Below are positions 41,734 through 53,069 of a stretch of 64,000 nt of DNA, piece by piece (positions within the stretch are counted from its first letter, which is position 1; every line of letters starts with the position of its first letter). Origin of the DNA: Streptomyces sp. PsTaAH-137 (lineage in GTDB: Bacteria > Actinomycetota > Actinomycetes > Streptomycetales > Streptomycetaceae); NCBI RefSeq assembly GCF_003259365.1, contig NZ_QLLY01000005.1, positions 124,001 to 188,000 of the forward strand. The letters run 5' to 3'. The notes beneath the pieces were generated by a model. The model was given only the letters and a program-made list of their open reading frames with translations, was not told where the DNA came from and made no database searches. Both the position numbers and the translations under genes were made by a program.

Positions 41734-42762
41734 ATGACCGCGCTCGAAGTGCTCTCCCAGGGCACCGTCATCCCCGCCCACCCCCTTGCACTCGACGCCG
41801 ACCGCAGGCTCGACGAACGCCGCCAGCGGGCGCTGACCCGCTACTACCTGGCGTCCGGCGCGGGCGGTGTCGCGGTGGCCGTGCACACCACCCAGTTCGA
41901 GATCCGCGAGCCCCGCGTGGGCCTGCTGAGGCCGGTGCTCGAACTGGCCGCCGAGACCGTACGGGCCGAGGCGGGCCGCCCCTTCGTGAAGGTGGCCGGG
42001 GCCTGCGGGTACACGGCGCAGGCCGTCGCCGAGGCCGAACTCGCGGCATCGCTCGGCTACGACGCGGTGCTGCTGAGCCCCGCCGTGCCGGGCGCCGACG
42101 AGAAGGGCCTCCTGGAACGGGCGCGGGCGGTCGGCGAGGTGCTGCCGGTCATCGGCTTCTACCTCCAGGAAGCCGTCGGCGGGCGGTACTTGTCGCCGGC
42201 GTTCTGGTCGGCCTTCGCGGACCTGCCGTCGACGGCGGCCGTAAAGATCGCCCCCTTCGACCGGTACCGGACGGCCGACGTCATCCGCGCGGTGGGCGCC
42301 GCCGACCGCGCGTCCGAGGTGGCGCTGTACACCGGCAACGACGACGACATCATCGGCGACCTGCTCACCCCGTACGAGACGGCGGGCGGGCGTCGCTGGT
42401 TCGCGGGCGGGCTGCTCGGGCAGTGGGCGGTGTGGACCCGGTCGGCGGCCACGCTCCTGGACGACGTGCGGGCGGCGCGGGCCGGTGACCACGAGGCGCT
42501 GCTGCGCTGTCTGGCCCGCCGCCCCGAGCTGACCGACGCCAACCAGGCCGTCTTCGACGTGCGCGGGGCGTTCCGCGGCTGCATCGCCGGTATCCACGAA
42601 GTCCTGCGCCGTCAGGGCCTGTTGGAGGGCATCTGGTGCCTGGACCCGGCGGAGACGCTGTCACCGGGCCAGGCCGACGAGCTGACCCGGGTGGCGGCCG
42701 CGTACCCGTGGCTGACGGACGACGCCTTCGTGAAGGAGCACCTGGATGACTGGCTCCGCTGA
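41734..42762 (+). CDS. DapA-family aldolase (2-keto-acid lyase type)
   Basis: A 342-residue class I aldolase/dehydratase of the dihydrodipicolinate-synthase family: Schiff-base Lys171 in AAVKIAPFDRYRT and the Tyr143 in VIGFYLQEAVGG. It is about 40 residues longer than DapA and sits in a carbohydrate cluster, so a 2-keto-3-deoxy sugar-acid aldolase or dehydratase role fits better than lysine synthesis. The product of the dehydratase at 30039 would be a natural substrate. Its 3' end overlaps the next gene by 17 bp. Confidence 0.87.
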   Translation: MTALEVLSQGTVIPAHPLALDADRRLDERRQRALTRYYLASGAGGVAVAVHTTQFEIREPRVGLLRPVLELAAETVRAEAGRPFVKVAGACGYTAQAVAEAELAASLGYDAVLLSPAVPGADEKGLLERARAVGEVLPVIGFYLQEAVGGRYLSPAFWSAFADLPSTAAVKIAPFDRYRTADVIRAVGAADRASEVALYTGNDDDIIGDLLTPYETAGGRRWFAGGLLGQWAVWTRSAATLLDDVRAARAGDHEALLRCLARRPELTDANQAVFDVRGAFRGCIAGIHEVLRRQGLLEGIWCLDPAETLSPGQADELTRVAAAYPWLTDDAFVKEHLDDWLR

Positions 42763-45876: not shown

Positions 45877-47040
45877 CTAGAGATCCAGGTCGCGGGCGAC
45901 GATCTCCTTCATGATCTCCGTGGTGCCGCCGTAGATGGTGGTGATGCGGGAGTCGAGGTAGGCGTGGGCGATGGGGTACTCCAGCATGTAGCCGTAGGCG
46001 CCGTGCAGTTGGAGGCAGCGGCCGACGATGTCGACGTACTGCTCCGTCGCCCAGAACTTCGCGGCGGCGGCGTCGACGGCGCTCAGGGCGCCGCGGGAGT
46101 GCCGGGCGAGCAGGTCGTCGATGTACGTGCGGCCCACGCGGGCGGTGGTGGCCATGTCGGCGAGCTGGAAGCGGGTGTTCTGGAAGGAGCCGACGCTCCG
46201 GCCGAACGCCTTGCGCTCCCGCACGTAGTCGACGGTCCGCTCCAGTACGACCTCGATGGACGCCATGGCGTTGGCGGCGATCGAGATGCGCTCCTGGGGA
46301 AGATTGCGCATCAGGGCCCGGAAGCCCGAGCCCTCGGCTCCCAGCATGTGGGCGGCGGGGACGCGGACGTCCTGGAAGAACAGTTCGCTGGTGTCCTGGG
46401 CGTGCAGGCCGACCTTCTTCAGGTTGCGGCCGCGGGAGAAGCCGGGCCGGTCCGCCTCGACGACGAGCAGGCTCAGGCCGCCGTGCCGGTCGGGCCCGGT
46501 GCGGACGGCGGTCACCACCAGGTCGGCGTTCTGGCCGTTGGAGATGAAGACTTTGCTGCCGTTGACGACGTAGTCGTCGCCGTCGCGGACGGCGGTGGTG
46601 GCGATGCCGGCCAGGTCGCTGCCGGTGCCGGGTTCGGTCATCGCGACCGCCACGACGAGCCGTCCGGCCGCGATGCCGGGCAGCCAGCGGGCCTTCTGCG
46701 CGTCGTCGGTGAGGTCGGTGAAGTACGGCACGACGATGTCGTTGGAGAGGCCGACCGCCGCGAGGGCGTCCGCAGCGGGGTGGCGGGAGAACTCCTCGCC
46801 GATCACCGCGTTGAAGCGGAAGTCGGTGATCCCGCCGCCGCCGTACTCCTCCGGGATGTTGAAGCCGAGGAGTCCGGCGCGGGCGGCCTCCTCGAAGAGG
46901 TCCCGGTCGACCACTCCCGCCTCCCGCCACCGCTCGGCGTGCGGCGCGGCGTGCTTGTCGGCGAACGCGCGGACCGTCTCCCGCAGCAGTTCGTGGTCCT
47001 CCTCGTAGAGCGAGCGCTCTCCGATCACAGGGCTTGCCAT
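45877..47040 (-). CDS. Acyl-CoA dehydrogenase, LCAD/IVD catalytic type
   Basis: A 387-residue FAD-dependent acyl-CoA dehydrogenase (AMTEPGTGSDLAGI, GSKVFISNGQNADL, QLHGAYGYMLEYPI). The C-terminal motif is YGGTTEIMKE rather than YEGT, so the usual catalytic Glu is missing there. Instead Glu250 lies in NLPQERISIA, the position used by long-chain and isovaleryl-CoA dehydrogenases, which tolerate branched chains. That fits methyl-branched isoprenoid acids. It is 58 bp downstream of the aldehyde dehydrogenase on the same strand, likely one operon. Confidence 0.92.
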   Translation of the reverse strand: MASPVIGERSLYEEDHELLRETVRAFADKHAAPHAERWREAGVVDRDLFEEAARAGLLGFNIPEEYGGGGITDFRFNAVIGEEFSRHPAADALAAVGLSNDIVVPYFTDLTDDAQKARWLPGIAAGRLVVAVAMTEPGTGSDLAGIATTAVRDGDDYVVNGSKVFISNGQNADLVVTAVRTGPDRHGGLSLLVVEADRPGFSRGRNLKKVGLHAQDTSELFFQDVRVPAAHMLGAEGSGFRALMRNLPQERISIAANAMASIEVVLERTVDYVRERKAFGRSVGSFQNTRFQLADMATTARVGRTYIDDLLARHSRGALSAVDAAAAKFWATEQYVDIVGRCLQLHGAYGYMLEYPIAHAYLDSRITTIYGGTTEIMKEIVARDLDL

Positions 47041-47098
47041 CAGATCTCCGATCCGGACCGGTCTCGTACGTCCGTCATGTCGTCCCGCGCGTCATCGC

Positions 47099-48739
47099 TC
47101 ATCGCACACCGAGCCGGCGCAGCAGGGCGAGTTGTCCATTGGTGCGGCGGACGAAGTTCCGCACGGCGCTCTCCCCCGGCTTCGGCGGTCCGAGCGGCAG
47201 GAGCCGCTGGGTCGCGACGGTCTGGGTCTCGGTGTACTTGCGGATGCCCTCGGCGCCGTGGCGGCGGCCGAGTCCGCTGTCGCCCATGCCGCCCATCCCG
47301 GCCTCGATGCTGCCGGCCGCCGCGGACGCGCCGTCGTTGATGTTGACCGATCCGGCGCGGATCCGCGCCGCCATCCGGGCGGCCTCGCGGGTGTCCTTCG
47401 ACCAGATCGACGCCGAGAGGCCGTGGCTCCCCTGGTTGGCGAGGCCCACGGCCTCGCTGTCCGAGCCGACGGCGTAGAGGGAGATCACCGGGCCGAAGGT
47501 CTCCTGTGCGCACACGGACATCTCCTGGGTGACGCCTTCGAGGACGGTCGGTTCGTAGCAGAGCGGGCCGATGTCGGGGCGGGCCCGGCCGCCCGTCAGC
47601 ACGGTCGCGCCCTTGGCCACCGCCTCGTCGACGTGGGCGGTGACCGCCGCGAGCCGCGCCTGCGAGGTCAGTGATCCGACGTCCGCCGAGTAGTCGTAGG
47701 CCGTCCCGAGCCGCAACGCCCGTGTCGCCCGGACGAGTTCGGCGCGGAAGGCGTCGTGGATCTTCTCGTGCACGTAGACGCGTTCGATGTGGATGCACAT
47801 CTGCCCGGTGTTGGTGAAGGCCGCGGTCACCGTGCCGGCCGCGGCGGCGGCGAGATCGGCGTCCGCGCGGACGATCAGCGGGTTCTTGCCGCCGAGTTCG
47901 AGCGAGGCGCCGACGAGCCGCCGCGCGGCCCGCTCCGCGACGGTGCGGCCGGTGGCGGTCGAGCCGGTGAAGCAGACGAAGTCCACGGCGTCGGTCAGCG
48001 CGGTGCCCACCGCGGCCCCGGGCCCGGCGACGATCTGCCACAGCCCGGCGGGCAGTCCGGCCTCGGCCATCAGGTCGCGGGTCCAGAGCAGGGTCAGCGG
48101 GGTCTGTTCGTCGGCCTTGGAGACCACGGCGTTCCCGGCGAGGAGGGCGGGCAGCGCGTCGCCGACGCCCAGGTACAGGGGGTAGTTCCACGGGGAGACG
48201 ATGCCGACGACGCCCTTCGGGACGCGGATCTCCCTGACCTTCGTCAGGCCGGGCACCATGCCCCGTACCCGGCGCGGCGCCAGGTAGTGACGGGCGCGCC
48301 GCGCGTAGTGCCGGGCGATCGCCGCGACCTGCGCCACCTCCTGCCAGGCGTGGAAGCGCGCCTTGCCGGTCTCCCACTGGATCAGGTCGAGCACCTGGTC
48401 CTGGCGGCTCAACAGCAGGTCGTGGAAGGCGAGGACGGTGTCGCGGCGGTGCGCCGATGACGACTGTGCCCAGCCGGCCCGGGCGGCCCGGGCCTCGGCC
48501 ACGGCCGTCTCCACGTCGTGCGCGGTGCACGCGGGGACGGCCGCGATCGGCGCCAGGTCGAACGGCGCGAGGGCGGTCAGCGGCTCGGCGGCGCCGGGTG
48601 CCGCCGCGTCCCGGCTCACCCACCCGCACCACCGCGCGATCAGTTCGTCCGTCACCCACGGCGGCCGGGCACTCGTCGGGACCGGGCCGTCGGGCGGGAG
48701 GCCGCCGGGCGCCGGGGTCTCGTCCTGCTCCGTGGTCAT
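47099..48739 (-). CDS. Aldehyde dehydrogenase (succinate-semialdehyde-dehydrogenase-like)
   Basis: A 546-residue NAD(P)-dependent aldehyde dehydrogenase with ~35 extra N-terminal residues and a basic C-terminal tail. Motifs: VVGIVSPWNYPLYLGVGDALPALLAGNAVVSK, FTGSTATGR, the general-base Glu in LELGGKNP, the catalytic Cys in NTGQMCIHIER and QETFGPVIS. Divergent from the latex-clearing-protein-like gene, it is well placed to oxidise the aldehyde ends created by that oxygenase to acids. Other aldehydes are possible. ATG 48739 has GAGGAGCGC upstream. Confidence 0.93.
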   Translation of the reverse strand: MTTEQDETPAPGGLPPDGPVPTSARPPWVTDELIARWCGWVSRDAAAPGAAEPLTALAPFDLAPIAAVPACTAHDVETAVAEARAARAGWAQSSSAHRRDTVLAFHDLLLSRQDQVLDLIQWETGKARFHAWQEVAQVAAIARHYARRARHYLAPRRVRGMVPGLTKVREIRVPKGVVGIVSPWNYPLYLGVGDALPALLAGNAVVSKADEQTPLTLLWTRDLMAEAGLPAGLWQIVAGPGAAVGTALTDAVDFVCFTGSTATGRTVAERAARRLVGASLELGGKNPLIVRADADLAAAAAGTVTAAFTNTGQMCIHIERVYVHEKIHDAFRAELVRATRALRLGTAYDYSADVGSLTSQARLAAVTAHVDEAVAKGATVLTGGRARPDIGPLCYEPTVLEGVTQEMSVCAQETFGPVISLYAVGSDSEAVGLANQGSHGLSASIWSKDTREAARMAARIRAGSVNINDGASAAAGSIEAGMGGMGDSGLGRRHGAEGIRKYTETQTVATQRLLPLGPPKPGESAVRNFVRRTNGQLALLRRLGVR

Positions 48740-48827
48740 GCGCGCTCCTCGGTCGTGGTCCGAGCCGGCGACGGCCCCTGGTTTTCGCTCGCGTCACTGC
48801 CCTTGTCGACCTCGGCGAGCATCGCTA

Positions 48828-48847
48828 TGTTAATCAAAAATCACATC
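48828..48847 (+). promoter_or_regulatory. Shared 20-bp motif in the lcp/aldehyde dehydrogenase divergent promoter
   Basis: TGTTAATCAAAAATCACATC in an AT-rich patch 95 bp before the lcp-like start and 89 bp before the aldehyde dehydrogenase start. It matches 17 of 20 positions, in opposite orientation, at 51390-51409 next to the TetR gene. An imperfect dyad (TGTTAAT/ATCACA) makes it a candidate TetR-type operator. Confidence 0.6.
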
Positions 48848-48941
48848 CTGGAACAAGCTCCCGAGCCTGGCCGACAGAGCCAACTCCGAGCATTTCAAGG
48901 CGAGATGAGCCGCACTCCCTACCAGGAAAGCGAGCAAGTGA

Positions 48942-50147
48942 ATGGACAATCTCAGTCGCAGAAGAGTCCTCTCGCTCGGGGCCGCGCTGGGCCTCGTGAG
49001 CGCGACGGGCACCACCGGCGCCTGGGCGTGGTCCCCGGCGGGTTCGGTCGCCGGCAGCGGTACGGGCACCGATCCCGAGTACGTGTGGGACGACGAGGTG
49101 GACCGCCTCCTCGCCTCGCTCATCGACAGCGGCGGGGTCCCGGCGGTCAACAGCGCGATGGCGTCGTGGGTGAACAACGACGACCCGCTGCCCAGCAACC
49201 TCCCGGCCGACCTGACCGCCTACCTCCAGAAGGTCAACCGGCTGCCGTCCTGGGCGGATCCCGCGAAGCTGGCCCGCGCCGCCGACTTCAACCGGCGCAA
49301 GGACACGTACCTCTTCGTGCTGTACGGCCTGGGCAGCGGCATCATGAGCACGGTCATCCCGCGCGAGGCCAGGAGCGTCTACTGGTCGGCGGGCGGCGCG
49401 GACATGAAGGACCGCGCGGCCAAGACGTTCACGTTCGGCTACGACCTCGCGCAGCTCAAGGGCTTCGAGCCGACGGGCCAGTTCATCGTGACGGCGAACA
49501 AGACCCGCCTGGTGCACGCCGGGGTGCGTCATCTGCTCCCGCGGTCACCGCACTGGAGCACGGGCGCGGACCAGAGGATCCCGATCAGCAACGCGGACAT
49601 CCTGGTCACCTTCCACAGTCTCGGCACGTACGTGCGCCGGAAGCTGCTCGACTGGAAGGTCCCGTTCTCCGCGGCGGACCAGGATGCCTTCCTGCACAGC
49701 TGGCAGGTCGCGCTGCACCTGCTCGGGGTGCAGGACCAGTACATCCCCGGGACGTGGGCCGACGCGGAGGCGCAGTCGGGCCAGGTGCTCACCCCGATCC
49801 TCTCCCCGACGACCGAGGGCATCGAGCTCGCCGAGGACCTGCTCGGGCTGACCGCCCAGGTGGATCTGGGCGTCACGCGCGGATTCCTCAACGAGTTCGT
49901 CCGCTACGTCCTCAGCGACGAGATCGGCGACTGGCTGGGCCTGAAGCGTGACTACGCTTCGGCGGCGCTGATCCGCACCGTGTGGCCGGCGTTCATCCTG
50001 TTCCGCGAGGGCCTGTCACCCGTCGCGCCCGCCGCCTTCTACGTGTTCGACCAGTTCGTGCGCGCGCTGGCCATGGCGTTCCTGAACAACGGCGCCTCGG
50101 GCACGACCACACCCATCGTGATCCCGACGGGCAACCGCCCTTCCTAG
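48942..50147 (+). CDS. lcp: Latex clearing protein (Lcp) homologue, rubber oxygenase (DUF2236)
   Basis: A 401-residue Tat-exported protein (SRRRVLSLGAALG) of the Lcp/MpaB-type DUF2236 family. Lcp is a secreted b-type haem dioxygenase that cleaves poly(cis-1,4-isoprene) to oligo-isoprenoids with aldehyde and ketone ends. Haem-pocket residues reported for Streptomyces K30 Lcp (Arg164, Lys167, Thr168, axial His198) all line up here with a constant shift of six: Arg158, Lys161 and Thr162 in DRAAKTFTFG, and His192 in KTRLVHAGVRHLL. The length (~400) also matches. The ribosome-binding site is weak. Flanked by dehydrogenases, a TetR regulator and an acyl-CoA ligase that could process the products. 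Another hydrophobic polyene substrate is possible. Confidence 0.87.
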   Translation: MDNLSRRRVLSLGAALGLVSATGTTGAWAWSPAGSVAGSGTGTDPEYVWDDEVDRLLASLIDSGGVPAVNSAMASWVNNDDPLPSNLPADLTAYLQKVNRLPSWADPAKLARAADFNRRKDTYLFVLYGLGSGIMSTVIPREARSVYWSAGGADMKDRAAKTFTFGYDLAQLKGFEPTGQFIVTANKTRLVHAGVRHLLPRSPHWSTGADQRIPISNADILVTFHSLGTYVRRKLLDWKVPFSAADQDAFLHSWQVALHLLGVQDQYIPGTWADAEAQSGQVLTPILSPTTEGIELAEDLLGLTAQVDLGVTRGFLNEFVRYVLSDEIGDWLGLKRDYASAALIRTVWPAFILFREGLSPVAPAAFYVFDQFVRALAMAFLNNGASGTTTPIVIPTGNRPS

Positions 50148-50155
50148 GGCGGGTG

Positions 50156-51319
50156 TCAGAGGCCCAGCGCGCCCACGACCAGCGCGGTCACGGCCGCGCG
50201 GGCCTCGGGGCCGTCGCGCCAGCGCAGGCTCCGCCCGGCCTCGACCACCACGCCGAACCCGGCATGCACGAGGACCCGGGCCTGGCGCGGGTCGAGTTCC
50301 GGGCGGGCGAGCCGCAACTGCTGCTCCCACACGGCGATGTGCTCGCGCTGCGCCTGGACCAGGGGGCGCTGGAGGTCGGCCGGGAGACCGGCGAACTCCG
50401 CCTCGGCGACGCTGGTGAGCGCGGTGTGCTCGAAGCTGTAGGCCACGTACGTCGCCGCCAGCGCGCCGATGGCCTCGCGCGGCCCCGCCACCTCGTGCAG
50501 GCTGCGGTCCACGGCCTGGGCGAGCAGTCCCGCCGCTTGCAGGCACGCGGCGGCGAGGATGTCGACCTTGCCCGGGTAGTGGCGGTAAAGCGCGGACGGG
50601 GCGAGGCCGACCGCGCGGGCGATCTGGCCGTTGGTGACGGCGGCGAACCCGTCGCGGGCGAACAGCGGGACGGCCGCCGCGAGGATCTCCCCGCGCCGCG
50701 AGCGCGGGACGGGCAATGCGGGCAGGTCGACGGAGGGCTCGCTCCCGGCCGCCTGGGCGGGGTCGGTCCCGGCCACCCGCAGGGCGCACTCCACCAGCAG
50801 TTCCTCGACCCGGCGCTGCGCAATGGAGGTGTGGTGCATCGTGATCGACCCGATGGCGCCGAGCGCCGCCACCGCGCGCAACTGCTCCTTCGGCAGCGGG
50901 TGTTCGCGCCGCGTCACCTCGGCCACCCGCCCGACGACGTACCCGAACTTCGCCCGCAGCAGCCGACGGTCCTCGCGGTGCAGATACCTGGCCTCCCAGC
51001 GGTACACGCCGCCCGAGGCGCGGTGCGCGACGGTGACCCGGACCAGGGCGGTGAAGACCTCCGCCGGGCCGGCCTCCGGCGGCAGTGCGTCGAGCGCGGC
51101 GACGAGCCGGTCCGCCATGGCGTGCGCGCACTCGGCGAACAGCGCGTACTTGTTGGGGAAGTGCCGGTACAGGGCGGCGGCGGTGATGCCGACCCGGGCG
51201 GCGATCTCCTCCATGGACGCCGCGTGGAATCCGCGCTCGCTGAAGAGCCGGCCGGCCGCCTCGACGATGAGCTGTCGGCGGTTGCGGGGCCGGGTGGGCG
51301 AGGCCGACCCGACCGTCAT
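50156..51319 (-). CDS. Regulator with two TetR-type DNA-binding domains
   Basis: A 387-residue protein with two tandem TetR units. HTH 1 is at about residues 33-57 (ASMEEIAARVGITAAALYRHFPNK) and HTH 2 at about 227-251 (VTNGQIARAVGLAPSALYRHYPGK), each followed by a helical ligand-binding/dimerisation part. Most TetR proteins are ~200 residues with one HTH, so this resembles a duplicated TetR that could bind as a pseudo-dimer. ATG 51319 is chosen because homology starts there; GTG 51382 would add 21 residues. It ends 8 bp after the lcp-like gene and is divergent from the acyl-CoA ligase. Probable regulator of both flanking operons. Confidence 0.87.
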   Translation of the reverse strand: MTVGSASPTRPRNRRQLIVEAAGRLFSERGFHAASMEEIAARVGITAAALYRHFPNKYALFAECAHAMADRLVAALDALPPEAGPAEVFTALVRVTVAHRASGGVYRWEARYLHREDRRLLRAKFGYVVGRVAEVTRREHPLPKEQLRAVAALGAIGSITMHHTSIAQRRVEELLVECALRVAGTDPAQAAGSEPSVDLPALPVPRSRRGEILAAAVPLFARDGFAAVTNGQIARAVGLAPSALYRHYPGKVDILAAACLQAAGLLAQAVDRSLHEVAGPREAIGALAATYVAYSFEHTALTSVAEAEFAGLPADLQRPLVQAQREHIAVWEQQLRLARPELDPRQARVLVHAGFGVVVEAGRSLRWRDGPEARAAVTALVVGALGL

Positions 51320-51389
51320 GACCGGCCGGACGACTGCGGATACGGGGGCATGGGGCTCAGTCAACCACACGCGTGACCGCACCCGGCAC

Positions 51390-51409
51390 GATGTGATTTC
51401 CCATTAACA
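51390..51409 (-). promoter_or_regulatory. Second copy of the shared motif, between the TetR gene and the ligase
   Basis: On the minus strand TGTTAATGGGAAATCACATC, matching 48828-48847 at 17 of 20 positions. It lies in the divergent gap between the double-TetR gene and the acyl-CoA ligase, as expected for autoregulation plus control of the ligase. Confidence 0.6.
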
Positions 51410-51500
51410 AAATGCTTCACGAGCCTTCTCCGCAGGCCGTATTGACCGGCACAATGCGGCAGCGGCCACCCGATCGCCACGACCCCCGAGGAGTCGCCCC

Positions 51501-53069
51501 ATGCCGACCGACACGGCTCCCGCCTGGTCCTTCCGGCACCACTGGATGTCCCAGGCGGCCACCCACGCGATGATGCGCCCCGACAAGCCCGCGCTGCGCT
51601 TCCAGGGACGGACGACGACCTGGGCCGAGCTCTCCGGGCGCTCGCTGCGGCTGGCCGCCGCGCTCGCCGACCGGGGGATCGCCGAGGGCGACCGCGTGGT
51701 CCTGCTCACGCTGAACCATCCGTGGTTCGTGGAGAGCGTGTTCGCGGCGAACAGCCTCGGCGCCATGGCCGTCCCGCTCAGCTTCCGGCTCGCGCCGCTG
51801 GAACTCGACGGGATCCTCGCCGACTGCACCCCCGCGGCCGTCGTCGTCGACGCGCGGCTGCTGCCGCTGCTCGACGCGGCGCCGAACAGCGCGTCGGTCG
51901 GCACGGTCGTCGTCATCGGTGACCTGCCCGACGGCGCCGGGGCCCGGGGCCTGCTCGCGTACGAGGACTTCCTCGCGGCCCACGAGCCGCTGGAGCTGCC
52001 CGACATCAGCGAGGACGCGACCGCGCTGATCATGTACACCTCGGGCACCACCGGCCGCCCGAAGGGCGTGCTGCTGTCGCACCGCAACATGCAGGTGCAG
52101 GCGCTCACCTGCATCCGCGCGATGGAGATCTTCGACGACTCCGACATCGGCTTCCTGACGGCCCCCTTCTTCCACATCGCGGGCCTCGGCTCGATGGTGG
52201 CGAACTTCGTGGTGGGCAGCACCGTCGTGATCCATCCACTGGGGGCCTTCGACCCGCAGGAAGTGCTCGACGCCTATGAACGCGAGGGCGCCACGGTCGT
52301 GTTCAACGTGCCGCAGCAGTGGGACCTGCTCTGCGCCCAGCCCGGCATCGGGAAACGGGATCTGAAGCTGCGGATCATCAGCTGGGGCGCCGCGCCCGCG
52401 AGCGACGCGACGCTGCGCGCGATGGCGGACAAGTTCCCCGGCGCGCTCAACGTGGCCGTGTTCGGCCAGACCGAGACCTCGCCGATCACCTGTGTGCTGC
52501 GCGGGGAGGACTCGCTGCGCAAGCTGGGCTCGGTCGGGCGGCCGATCCCGAGCATCCAGTACCGCGTCGTCGACGCCGACATGAACGACGTACCGGCAGG
52601 CGAGATCGGCGAGATCGTCTACCGCGGGCCGTCCGTGACGCGGGGGTACTGGAACAAGCCGAAGGAGACGGCCGAAGCCTTCGACGGCGGCTGGTTCCAC
52701 TCCGGCGACCTCGTCACCCAGGACGACGAGGGCTTCGTGTGGGTGGTCGACCGCAAGAAGGACATGATCATCAGCGGCGGCGAGAACATCTACTGCGCCG
52801 AGCTGGAGAACGCCGTCGCCGCGCACCCGGCCGTGCTCGAGGTCGCGGTCATCGGCCGGCCCGACGAGCGCTGGGGCCAGGTGCCGGTCGCCTACGTCAC
52901 CGTGGCCCCGGGAACCGAACTGTCGCTGGAGGACCTGACGGACTTCCTCGACGGACGGCTCGCCTCCTTCAAGCGGCCCAAGGACCTGGTCGTCCTCGCC
53001 GAACTGCCGCGGAACGCGGGCGGCAAGGTGGTCAAGCCGCTGCTGCGGTCCCGGGACGCGGCGCGCTGA
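51501..53069 (+). CDS. Acyl-CoA ligase (AMP-binding family)
   Basis: A 522-residue ANL-superfamily adenylating enzyme: P-loop YTSGTTGRPKG (residues 179-189), A-motif region FGQTETSPITC, hinge DRKKDMIISGGENIYCAELE and the catalytic Lys near residue 509 in PRNAGGKVVKP. It forms acyl-CoA from a carboxylic acid, CoA and ATP. Given the lcp-like oxygenase and aldehyde dehydrogenase, an oligo-isoprenoid or other methyl-branched acid is a reasonable substrate. It starts downstream of the shared operator-like motif at 51390-51409. Confidence 0.93.
   Translation: MPTDTAPAWSFRHHWMSQAATHAMMRPDKPALRFQGRTTTWAELSGRSLRLAAALADRGIAEGDRVVLLTLNHPWFVESVFAANSLGAMAVPLSFRLAPLELDGILADCTPAAVVVDARLLPLLDAAPNSASVGTVVVIGDLPDGAGARGLLAYEDFLAAHEPLELPDISEDATALIMYTSGTTGRPKGVLLSHRNMQVQALTCIRAMEIFDDSDIGFLTAPFFHIAGLGSMVANFVVGSTVVIHPLGAFDPQEVLDAYEREGATVVFNVPQQWDLLCAQPGIGKRDLKLRIISWGAAPASDATLRAMADKFPGALNVAVFGQTETSPITCVLRGEDSLRKLGSVGRPIPSIQYRVVDADMNDVPAGEIGEIVYRGPSVTRGYWNKPKETAEAFDGGWFHSGDLVTQDDEGFVWVVDRKKDMIISGGENIYCAELENAVAAHPAVLEVAVIGRPDERWGQVPVAYVTVAPGTELSLEDLTDFLDGRLASFKRPKDLVVLAELPRNAGGKVVKPLLRSRDAAR

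Follow-up and report, generated by a model that had tools for sequence, protein, structure and literature searches.

A predicted LcpRB-type regulon joining a latex clearing protein to aldehyde- and acyl-CoA-processing enzymes in Streptomyces sp. PsTaAH-137

Introduction

Several lcp loci, which encode latex clearing proteins (Lcps), have been described in actinomycetes, and the complete rubber degradation pathway remains unknown (PMC9108482). Here we describe an lcp locus in a stretch of 64,000 nt (contig NZ_QLLY01000005.1, positions 124,001 to 188,000; hereafter, the window) of the 8.96-Mb assembly of Streptomyces sp. PsTaAH-137 (GCF_003259365.1; 111 contigs), in which lcp lies together with genes for an aldehyde dehydrogenase, an acyl-coenzyme A (acyl-CoA) dehydrogenase, a double-TetR regulator and an acyl-CoA ligase (fadD).

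The closest described systems are lcp3-ACTI_69510 of Actinoplanes sp. OR16 and lcp-LcpRB of S. coelicolor A3(2), which, like the window, combine a regulator of duplicated TetR architecture with the same operator upstream of lcp (PMC7413915). ACTI_69510 adjoins lcp3, shares 72.3% identity with LcpRB and binds lcp promoters, and the published LcpRB/ACTI_69510 sites are TATGTTAATGAAAAATCACA and TATGTTAATGGAAAATCACA; OR16 Lcp3 consumes oxygen on latex (PMC7413915). In the available text, only lcp genes are named as targets in the two strains and no other known rubber genes are named near lcp3 (PMC7413915), whereas in the window the genes for the aldehyde dehydrogenase, the acyl-CoA dehydrogenase and FadD share two operators.

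The lcp-oxiB-oxiA locus of Streptomyces sp. K30 shares the Lcp catalytic residues and a signal of the twin-arginine translocation (Tat) type with the window, but K30 has OxiAB beside lcp and the window does not (PMC9108482). The lcp locus of Streptomyces sp. AC04842 comprises genes for an alpha-methylacyl-CoA racemase, a TetR protein, a hypothetical protein, an alcohol dehydrogenase, a second TetR protein and Lcp; as in the window, Lcp and TetR accompany lipid-type genes and the scaffold has no oxiAB, but no aldehyde dehydrogenase, acyl-CoA dehydrogenase or FadD is listed beside the regulator, and the available text does not describe the locus as a regulon (PMC9108482). In Gordonia polyisoprenivorans VH2 and Nocardia farcinica NBRC 15532, an intracellular aldehyde dehydrogenase is used instead of OxiAB, as is proposed here for the window. 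These enzymes were found by homology and activity, their clustering with lcp is not mentioned in the available text, and they are compared with the window enzyme by function, not by sequence (PMC9782182). Mycobacterial Mce3R (PDB 9b7y) resembles the window regulator in its double-TetR homology over most of the chain and its lipid-type targets; its published operator is non-palindromic, whereas that of the window forms an imperfect inverted repeat whose two arms differ (PMC11667970).

Lcp, the double-TetR regulator, its operator and, in AC04842 (PMC9108482), a neighbouring alcohol dehydrogenase and racemase are thus already in print. Aldehyde dehydrogenase, acyl-CoA dehydrogenase and fadD genes as operator-linked members of a regulon were not found in the literature searched, subscription papers lying outside its scope. 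Searches for literature linking Mce3R to rubber, or Lcp to downstream enzymes or the operator, returned nothing on such a cassette among the matches listed.

Results and discussion

Gene organization of the locus

Seven features between positions 45877 and 53069, the extent given in an initial annotation of the window, probably constitute one regulon for the use of cis-polyisoprene or a like isoprenoid polymer and are arranged as two divergons. All five genes named in that annotation (for Lcp, the aldehyde dehydrogenase, the acyl-CoA dehydrogenase, the double-TetR regulator and the acyl-CoA ligase) were confirmed at the coordinates it had given, and two predicted operators are added here.

45877..47040, minus strand: acyl-CoA dehydrogenase of the long-chain acyl-CoA dehydrogenase/isovaleryl-CoA dehydrogenase (LCAD/IVD) type; Pfam Acyl-CoA_dh; second gene of a probable left-going operon
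47099..48739, minus strand: GabD2 (succinic semialdehyde dehydrogenase)-related aldehyde dehydrogenase, in a clade specific to the cassette; NF006916; first gene of the same operon
48826..48845, plus strand: predicted LcpRB operator 1, TATGTTAATCAAAAATCACA, between the aldehyde dehydrogenase gene and lcp; 1 mismatch to the published site
48942..50147, plus strand: lcp, latex clearing protein of the LcpRB-associated clade; Pfam MPAB_Lcp_cat, PDB match, Tat-like signal
50156..51382 (true start perhaps 51319), minus strand: double-TetR regulator of LcpRB/ACTI_69510 architecture; two TetR_N domains
51392..51411, minus strand: predicted LcpRB operator 2, TTTGTTAATGGGAAATCACA, in the gap separating fadD from the regulator gene; differs from the published site by 2 mismatches
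51501..53069, plus strand: acyl-CoA ligase (fadD), closest solved relative FadD5; Pfam AMP-binding, PDB 8r2q

The genes follow one another in the order acyl-CoA dehydrogenase (-), aldehyde dehydrogenase (-), lcp (+), double TetR (-) and acyl-CoA ligase (+), with intergenic gaps of 58, 202, 8 and 118 bp, respectively (the last is 181 bp if the regulator starts at 51319). The strands and gap sizes suggest that the first two genes probably form one left-going operon divergent from lcp; the regulator gene is likewise divergent from fadD.

Operator sites in the window and the assembly

When the whole window was searched with the pattern TATGTTAATGNAAAATCACA at up to 3 mismatches, two matches were obtained, both located between cassette genes, and none were found in 100 shuffles. 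The same two sites alone are retrieved when the entire assembly is searched with the core TGTTAATN4AATCACA at up to 2 mismatches or with the symmetric form TGTKAWTN4AWTMACA at up to 1 mismatch. At 2 mismatches, the symmetric form also matches positions 48937-48954, across the lcp start codon, and does so at the same spot in several relatives; this may be a second half-site or a coding coincidence, and is taken here as a chance likeness of coding sequence. The initial annotation, in which these operators were absent, had guessed at a regulon from gene adjacency. That guess is now supported, because predicted sites lie at exactly the two divergent promoter regions, are unique in the assembly and are conserved in relatives (see below).

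The Lcp oxygenase

The window Lcp matches PDB 5o1l ('Rubber oxygenase') over its full length (E 1.6e-132, phmmer against PDB sequences); at E up to 1, only 5o1l and 5o1m, both bearing that name, were matched. We take these two chains to be LcpK30. The protein also scores above the cut-off of Pfam MPAB_Lcp_cat and, by family, would be a b-type haem dioxygenase. The functional residues E148, R164, K167, T168, R195, H198 and R202 of LcpK30 (numbering of PMC5522427) correspond to E142, R158, K161, T162, R189, H192 and R196 of the window Lcp, so that the constant offset of six noted initially for the haem-site residues holds for all seven, of which E148, R164, K167, T168 and H198 belong to the haem and active sites. 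Among 91 distinct Lcps from the fetched loci (L-numbers; G-numbers denote genomes), six of these residues are invariant and H192 is present in 90, the remaining row having masked bases over the His. A Tat-like motif, SRRRVLSLG, was read near the N-terminus, and RR-x-[A/L/V/F/M] occurs by pattern match within the first 20 residues in 87 of the 91.

A quick maximum-likelihood search without bootstrap, from which the partial L076 was left out and in which LcpK30 was not a row, divided the Lcps with a support of 100 into 24 rows (the tandem-type genes of L062-L075 and one Frankia gene) and a group of 67 rows that holds the window Lcp, hereafter called LcpRB-type. L062-L076 were labelled K30-type by their distance from the window Lcp and, for L063, by the presence of OxiB beside tandem Lcps; the window Lcp does not group with these tandem genes. 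Its nearest named relatives are in Streptomyces, and LcpRB-type Lcps are found in many actinomycete genera. The genome was also searched for a further Lcp or a locus of K30 type, a possibility that was rejected because only a single match was obtained at E <= 1e-60; five further MPAB_Lcp_cat matches belong to the wider Pfam family.

Three cassette loci (L060:9302-10501, L061:9302-10501 and L200:8001-9200) carry Lcps whose stem in the tree is very long, at 0.69 changes per site. The other cassette proteins compared there (regulator, FadD and acyl-CoA dehydrogenase) share 72-86% identity with those of the window, and the Lcp functional residues are unchanged; these Lcps possibly have a changed substrate.

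Conservation of the operators in relatives

The genus scan covered 392 genomes of the same genus, and the first Lcp survey 295 genomes. The exact core occurs in 36 of the 392 (42 sites), and a reversed-pattern control gave 0. All 36 genomes carry an LcpRB-type Lcp, 25 being known from the first Lcp survey and 11 after fetching. LcpRB-type Lcps were detected in 26 of the 295 genomes (24 at 75-100% identity, and G102 and G122 at 60 and 58%, respectively); the exact core is present in 25 of these and differs by one mismatch in G236. Fifteen loci with more distant Lcps (L062-L076, one partial) contain no site at up to 2 mismatches.

The 67 distinct LcpRB-type loci, after eight named loci had been recognized as duplicates of unnamed ones, represent several families. 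An lcp-side site is found in 60 of them at up to 2 mismatches and in 62 at up to 3; it lies 83-110 bp upstream in 57 of the 60, and TATGTTAA is unchanged in all 60. Twenty loci have a linked fadD, and 19 of them carry a fadD-side site at up to 2 mismatches; the site of Actinosynnema L189 has 3. For comparison, 6200 stretches of 260 bp were drawn at random from these loci; 120 of them (~2%) contain a site at up to 2 mismatches, a rate that is an upper bound because the stretches include true sites. The comparison of lcp-side sites covered 61 of the 67 loci. The remaining six (L187, L189, L190, L196, L198 and L199) gave no site within 2 mismatches and were counted as misses, L189 alone having a site at 3 mismatches; L188 was also counted as a miss on the lcp side (3 mismatches).

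The two operator arms differ, and one orientation relative to their genes is kept, which would suit two unlike DNA-binding domains within one chain, as in Mce3R (PMC11667970).

In four Microbacteriaceae loci (L191, L193, L194 and L197), the LcpRB operator (1-2 mismatches) lies upstream of lcp, and no double-TetR gene was found within the fetched stretch.

The double-TetR regulator

The initial description of a double-TetR regulator is borne out: the chain encoded beside lcp contains two TetR_N domains (Pfam), and its halves are 41% identical over 90 residues. Its best PDB match is Mce3R (9b7y, E 1.9e-32) over residues 28-384, spanning both TetR units, and the protein is probably a single-chain pseudo-dimer like Mce3R. 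It appears to match LcpRB and ACTI_69510 in architecture and place, being set beside them by description, not by sequence identity. The regulator was located in 58 of the 67 distinct LcpRB-type loci.

More distant homologues were examined in 11 fetched loci (L156-L166). In four of these (L156, L157, L158 and L161), which come from two other families, the homologue is 38-44% identical and divergent from a FadD gene (60-65%). Each pair is accompanied by an operator-like site (0 to 2 mismatches), and the fetched stretch contains no lcp; the genome of L156 (G680) has a separate lcp locus, L154. None of the other seven loci has a site beside FadD, L159 having the regulator-FadD pair without it. Judging from these four loci, the regulator-fadD pair may predate the link with lcp. 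FadB/J-like and acyl-CoA dehydrogenase genes were also seen near the homologue in L156, L158 and L161.

Aldehyde dehydrogenase and OxiAB

The aldehyde dehydrogenase, with Cys315 in a GQMC motif, scores 734.5 bits against NF006916, the GabD2 succinic semialdehyde dehydrogenase model (cut-off 521). Matches of at least 77% were found in 7 of 30 chosen genomes, including this one, and all lie inside the cassette, while a GabD2-like paralogue (53-58%) is located elsewhere in all 30. In a tree from a quick search without bootstrap, the 17 cassette enzymes occupy one side of a branch with a support of 100 in the Shimodaira-Hasegawa-like approximate likelihood ratio test (SH-aLRT), opposite 12 housekeeping paralogues, and 63 positions are nearly fixed differently between the two sets. 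The identification of the enzyme as housekeeping GabD2 was rejected in view of this separate clade and the second paralogue in the genome.

Neither oxiA nor oxiB is present at the locus. The OxiB of L063 (genome G006), used as query, had no match at E <= 1e-30 in three genomes, namely, the present one, G002 and G122. A copy elsewhere in this genome was rejected as a candidate, since none of its six MoCoBD_1 matches corresponds to that OxiB at the same threshold. The query was matched in 9 of 12 genomes, including G006 itself, and six of these carry the cassette or parts of it. No OxiB being found here and the aldehyde dehydrogenase being cassette-specific, the enzyme likely replaces OxiAB in this genome. 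In other genera, aldehyde dehydrogenases are documented to oxidize oligo-isoprene aldehydes, and they take the place of OxiAB in G. polyisoprenivorans VH2 and N. farcinica (PMC9782182). The initial suggestion of a solution different from oxiAB is therefore upheld for this genome but is not new as a principle.

Acyl-CoA ligase and acyl-CoA dehydrogenase

Among PDB entries, the ligase is closest to FadD5 (8r2q, E 4e-176), and its score against the FadD5 model NF005857 (669.5 bits) is below the cut-off of 733. The acyl-CoA dehydrogenase gives its best PDB matches to 2pg0 and to mitochondrial long-chain acyl-CoA dehydrogenase (8w0t). It has Glu E250 in LPQER and YGGT near the C-terminus. The Glu of LPQER is presumably the catalytic base position of LCAD/IVD-type enzymes, those of the medium-chain type (MCAD) carrying their catalytic Glu, on the same presumption, at Y-E-G-T; LCAD/IVD-type enzymes tolerate branched chains. 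The initial assignment to the LCAD/IVD type is fair by this rule, because E250 lies in LPQER and YGGT stands in place of the MCAD-type Glu. A match of at least 74% identity occurs in 18 of the 67 distinct Lcp loci, window included.

Composition of the cassette in relatives

Genes of relatives were assigned from tblastn matches, pieces below 40-50% coverage (in one locus survey, also those below 50% identity) being dropped, and thiolases were assigned from Pfam domains. At the identity thresholds used, fadD, the acyl-CoA dehydrogenase and the aldehyde dehydrogenase were found in 19, 18 and 17 of the 67 distinct loci, respectively. The regulator is the only tested cassette gene in 36 loci, and none of the seven genes tested was found in 7. 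These counts are minima because the set includes short loci and loci truncated at contig ends. The cassette label changes six times on the Lcp tree, which suggests that the cassette has likely been gained or lost repeatedly.

The arrangement of the cassette also varies. Genes for a DUF4334/GXWXG protein and a Zn-alcohol dehydrogenase lie between those for the aldehyde dehydrogenase and the acyl-CoA dehydrogenase in L118, L122 and L169. In Streptomyces sp. NRRL B-3428 (L200), where the aldehyde dehydrogenase is missing, the lcp operator is additionally followed by genes for a thiolase and a FadB/J-like protein. G345 has a fadD / alcohol dehydrogenase-acyl-CoA dehydrogenase-thiolase-FadB/J block, again without the aldehyde dehydrogenase, ~14 kb from lcp and with sites of its own. 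In Lentzea L186 and L188, the gene order is rearranged with the same divergent pairs kept, and the sites have drifted. The lcp-plus-regulator locus L052 has genes for an alcohol dehydrogenase, a DUF4334 protein, a CoA-transferase-III family protein, an acyl-CoA dehydrogenase and a thiolase nearby and no further operators in the fetched stretch. The CoA-transferase-III family includes racemases, and the gene order of L052 is of the same kind as that of the AC04842 lcp locus.

The GXWXG/DUF4334 protein recurs beside LcpRB-type lcp genes, partly behind an operator (L122:6321-6800, L118:12857-13381, L052:13096-13599 and L200:7264-7851), and is a candidate carrier or enzyme for oligo-isoprenoids; a literature search on DUF4334/GXWXG returned nothing relevant.

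Proposed mechanism and alternative explanations

In the mechanism that we propose, each of the two divergent promoter regions would hold an asymmetric operator occupied by the double-TetR protein, which would probably repress the aldehyde dehydrogenase-acyl-CoA dehydrogenase operon and lcp as well as its own gene and fadD. Repression at both regions is the simplest reading because all five streptomycete TetR regulators tested that lie within 200 bp of a divergent gene repressed that gene (PMC3511530). An oligo-isoprenoid signal would release the regulator from DNA. Lcp would then be exported via Tat and cut the polymer into oligomers with aldehyde and ketone ends; after uptake, these would be oxidized to acids by the aldehyde dehydrogenase and converted to CoA esters by the FadD5-like ligase, and the LCAD-type acyl-CoA dehydrogenase would begin their beta-oxidation. 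This order of lcp, aldehyde dehydrogenase, fadD and acyl-CoA dehydrogenase is proposed because of the chemistry of Lcp products (PMC5522427) and the functions of the enzyme families. Uptake and the remaining beta-oxidation functions are not encoded in the cassette.

The steps after Lcp are poorly known. In this assembly, matches to a known operator are confined to a single short stretch, where they mark out an aldehyde dehydrogenase, a CoA ligase and an acyl-CoA dehydrogenase as dedicated enzymes; candidates for the steps can thus be named and two promoter regions delimited. The cassette would moreover be small and transferable, would do without OxiAB, a molybdenum enzyme, and suggests how a secreted polymer-cutting enzyme could come under a lipid-catabolism regulator.

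Several observations weigh against a regulon of this kind. The likeness of the regulator and Lcp to LcpRB, ACTI_69510 and OR16 Lcp3 is one of architecture and place, not of sequence identity. The 36 loci with the regulator and none of the enzyme genes, at the thresholds used, indicate that Lcp does not depend on the cassette in cis. Seven of the 67 loci lack an lcp-side site at up to 2 mismatches, namely, five Frankiaceae loci without a regulator nearby, Lentzea L188 and Actinosynnema L189 (the last two with sites at 3 mismatches). The aldehyde dehydrogenase passes a succinic semialdehyde dehydrogenase model, and the main aldehyde dehydrogenase of N. farcinica, NF2_RS14000, is constitutive (PMC9782182). 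OxiB is also present in six relatives bearing the cassette in whole or part (G160, G288, G102, G307, G311 and G345; that of G288 is 49% identical with one internal stop), so that the aldehyde dehydrogenase and OxiAB are not strict alternatives.

The regulon might be real with rubber activity incidental, its natural substrate being a soil or plant isoprenoid such as polyprenols, gutta-type trans-polyisoprene or long terpenoids. The spread of LcpRB-type Lcps over many actinomycete genera and the long Lcp stem of L060, L061 and L200 would fit such a substrate, as would the activity of OR16 Lcp3, encoded beside a double TetR, which is ~18 times lower on latex than that of Lcp1 (PMC7413915). However, all checked Lcp functional residues are unchanged, the double-TetR-linked lcp3 is the most strongly transcribed of the three OR16 lcp genes (PMC7413915), and Dactylosporangium Lcp1, encoded beside a TetR gene of double-TetR length (1,209 bp), formed aldehyde from rubber in a crude recombinant extract (PMC11169899); we consider a non-rubber substrate unlikely. 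Still less probable is that the regulator basically governs fatty-acid beta-oxidation through FadD and the acyl-CoA dehydrogenase, with lcp as one target of a general lipid regulon. Mce3R, the nearest solved structure, regulates genes implicated in lipid and cholesterol metabolism (PMC11667970), and four of the 11 distant-homologue loci pair the regulator with FadD and an operator-like site with no lcp in the stretch. These homologues are, however, only 38-44% identical, and the remaining seven loci lack such a site beside FadD; the only two sites of the present genome both lie inside the cassette, and in 36 of the 67 loci no tested cassette gene was found besides lcp and that of the regulator. 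That the neighbours are ordinary, the aldehyde dehydrogenase being housekeeping GabD2 and adjacent to lcp by accident, is very improbable: its NF006916 score is well above the cut-off, but a separate GabD2-like paralogue exists here and in all the genomes searched, the cassette enzymes fall on one side of the branch with 63 nearly fixed differences, and the gene shares the operator-bearing divergent promoter region with lcp in Streptomyces and is also linked to it in Lentzea and Actinosynnema.

A tentative and rather doubtful reading, based on the four distant-homologue loci that pair the regulator with FadD and an operator-like site, concerns the origin of the regulon: the LcpRB regulator may descend from an Mce3R-like beta-oxidation switch on a divergent fadD, with lcp recruited later. 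The CoA ester made by the cassette FadD, and not the polymer or the aldehyde, would therefore be the signal sensed. If this were true, the first intracellular product bound to CoA would turn on the secretion of Lcp, in a self-reinforcing loop that starts from an insoluble polymer.

Flanking genes

A wider operon including the flanking genes for a hydrolase, an FAA hydrolase, an IolG-like dehydrogenase and a second aldehyde dehydrogenase was considered and rejected, as the thresholds used revealed none of these genes in the neighbourhood of lcp in relatives. Exceptions are PepC, present in L118, and the hydrolase or aldehyde dehydrogenase, to which a few loci have weak matches (~40% or less). 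In the window search, the published operator had no match beside these genes. At positions 41734-42762, a 342-aa reading frame with no Pfam match at E <= 0.001 appears by eye to be DapA/DHDPS-like (DHDPS, dihydrodipicolinate synthase) and adjoins genes for a hydroxyacid dehydrogenase and the FAA hydrolase.

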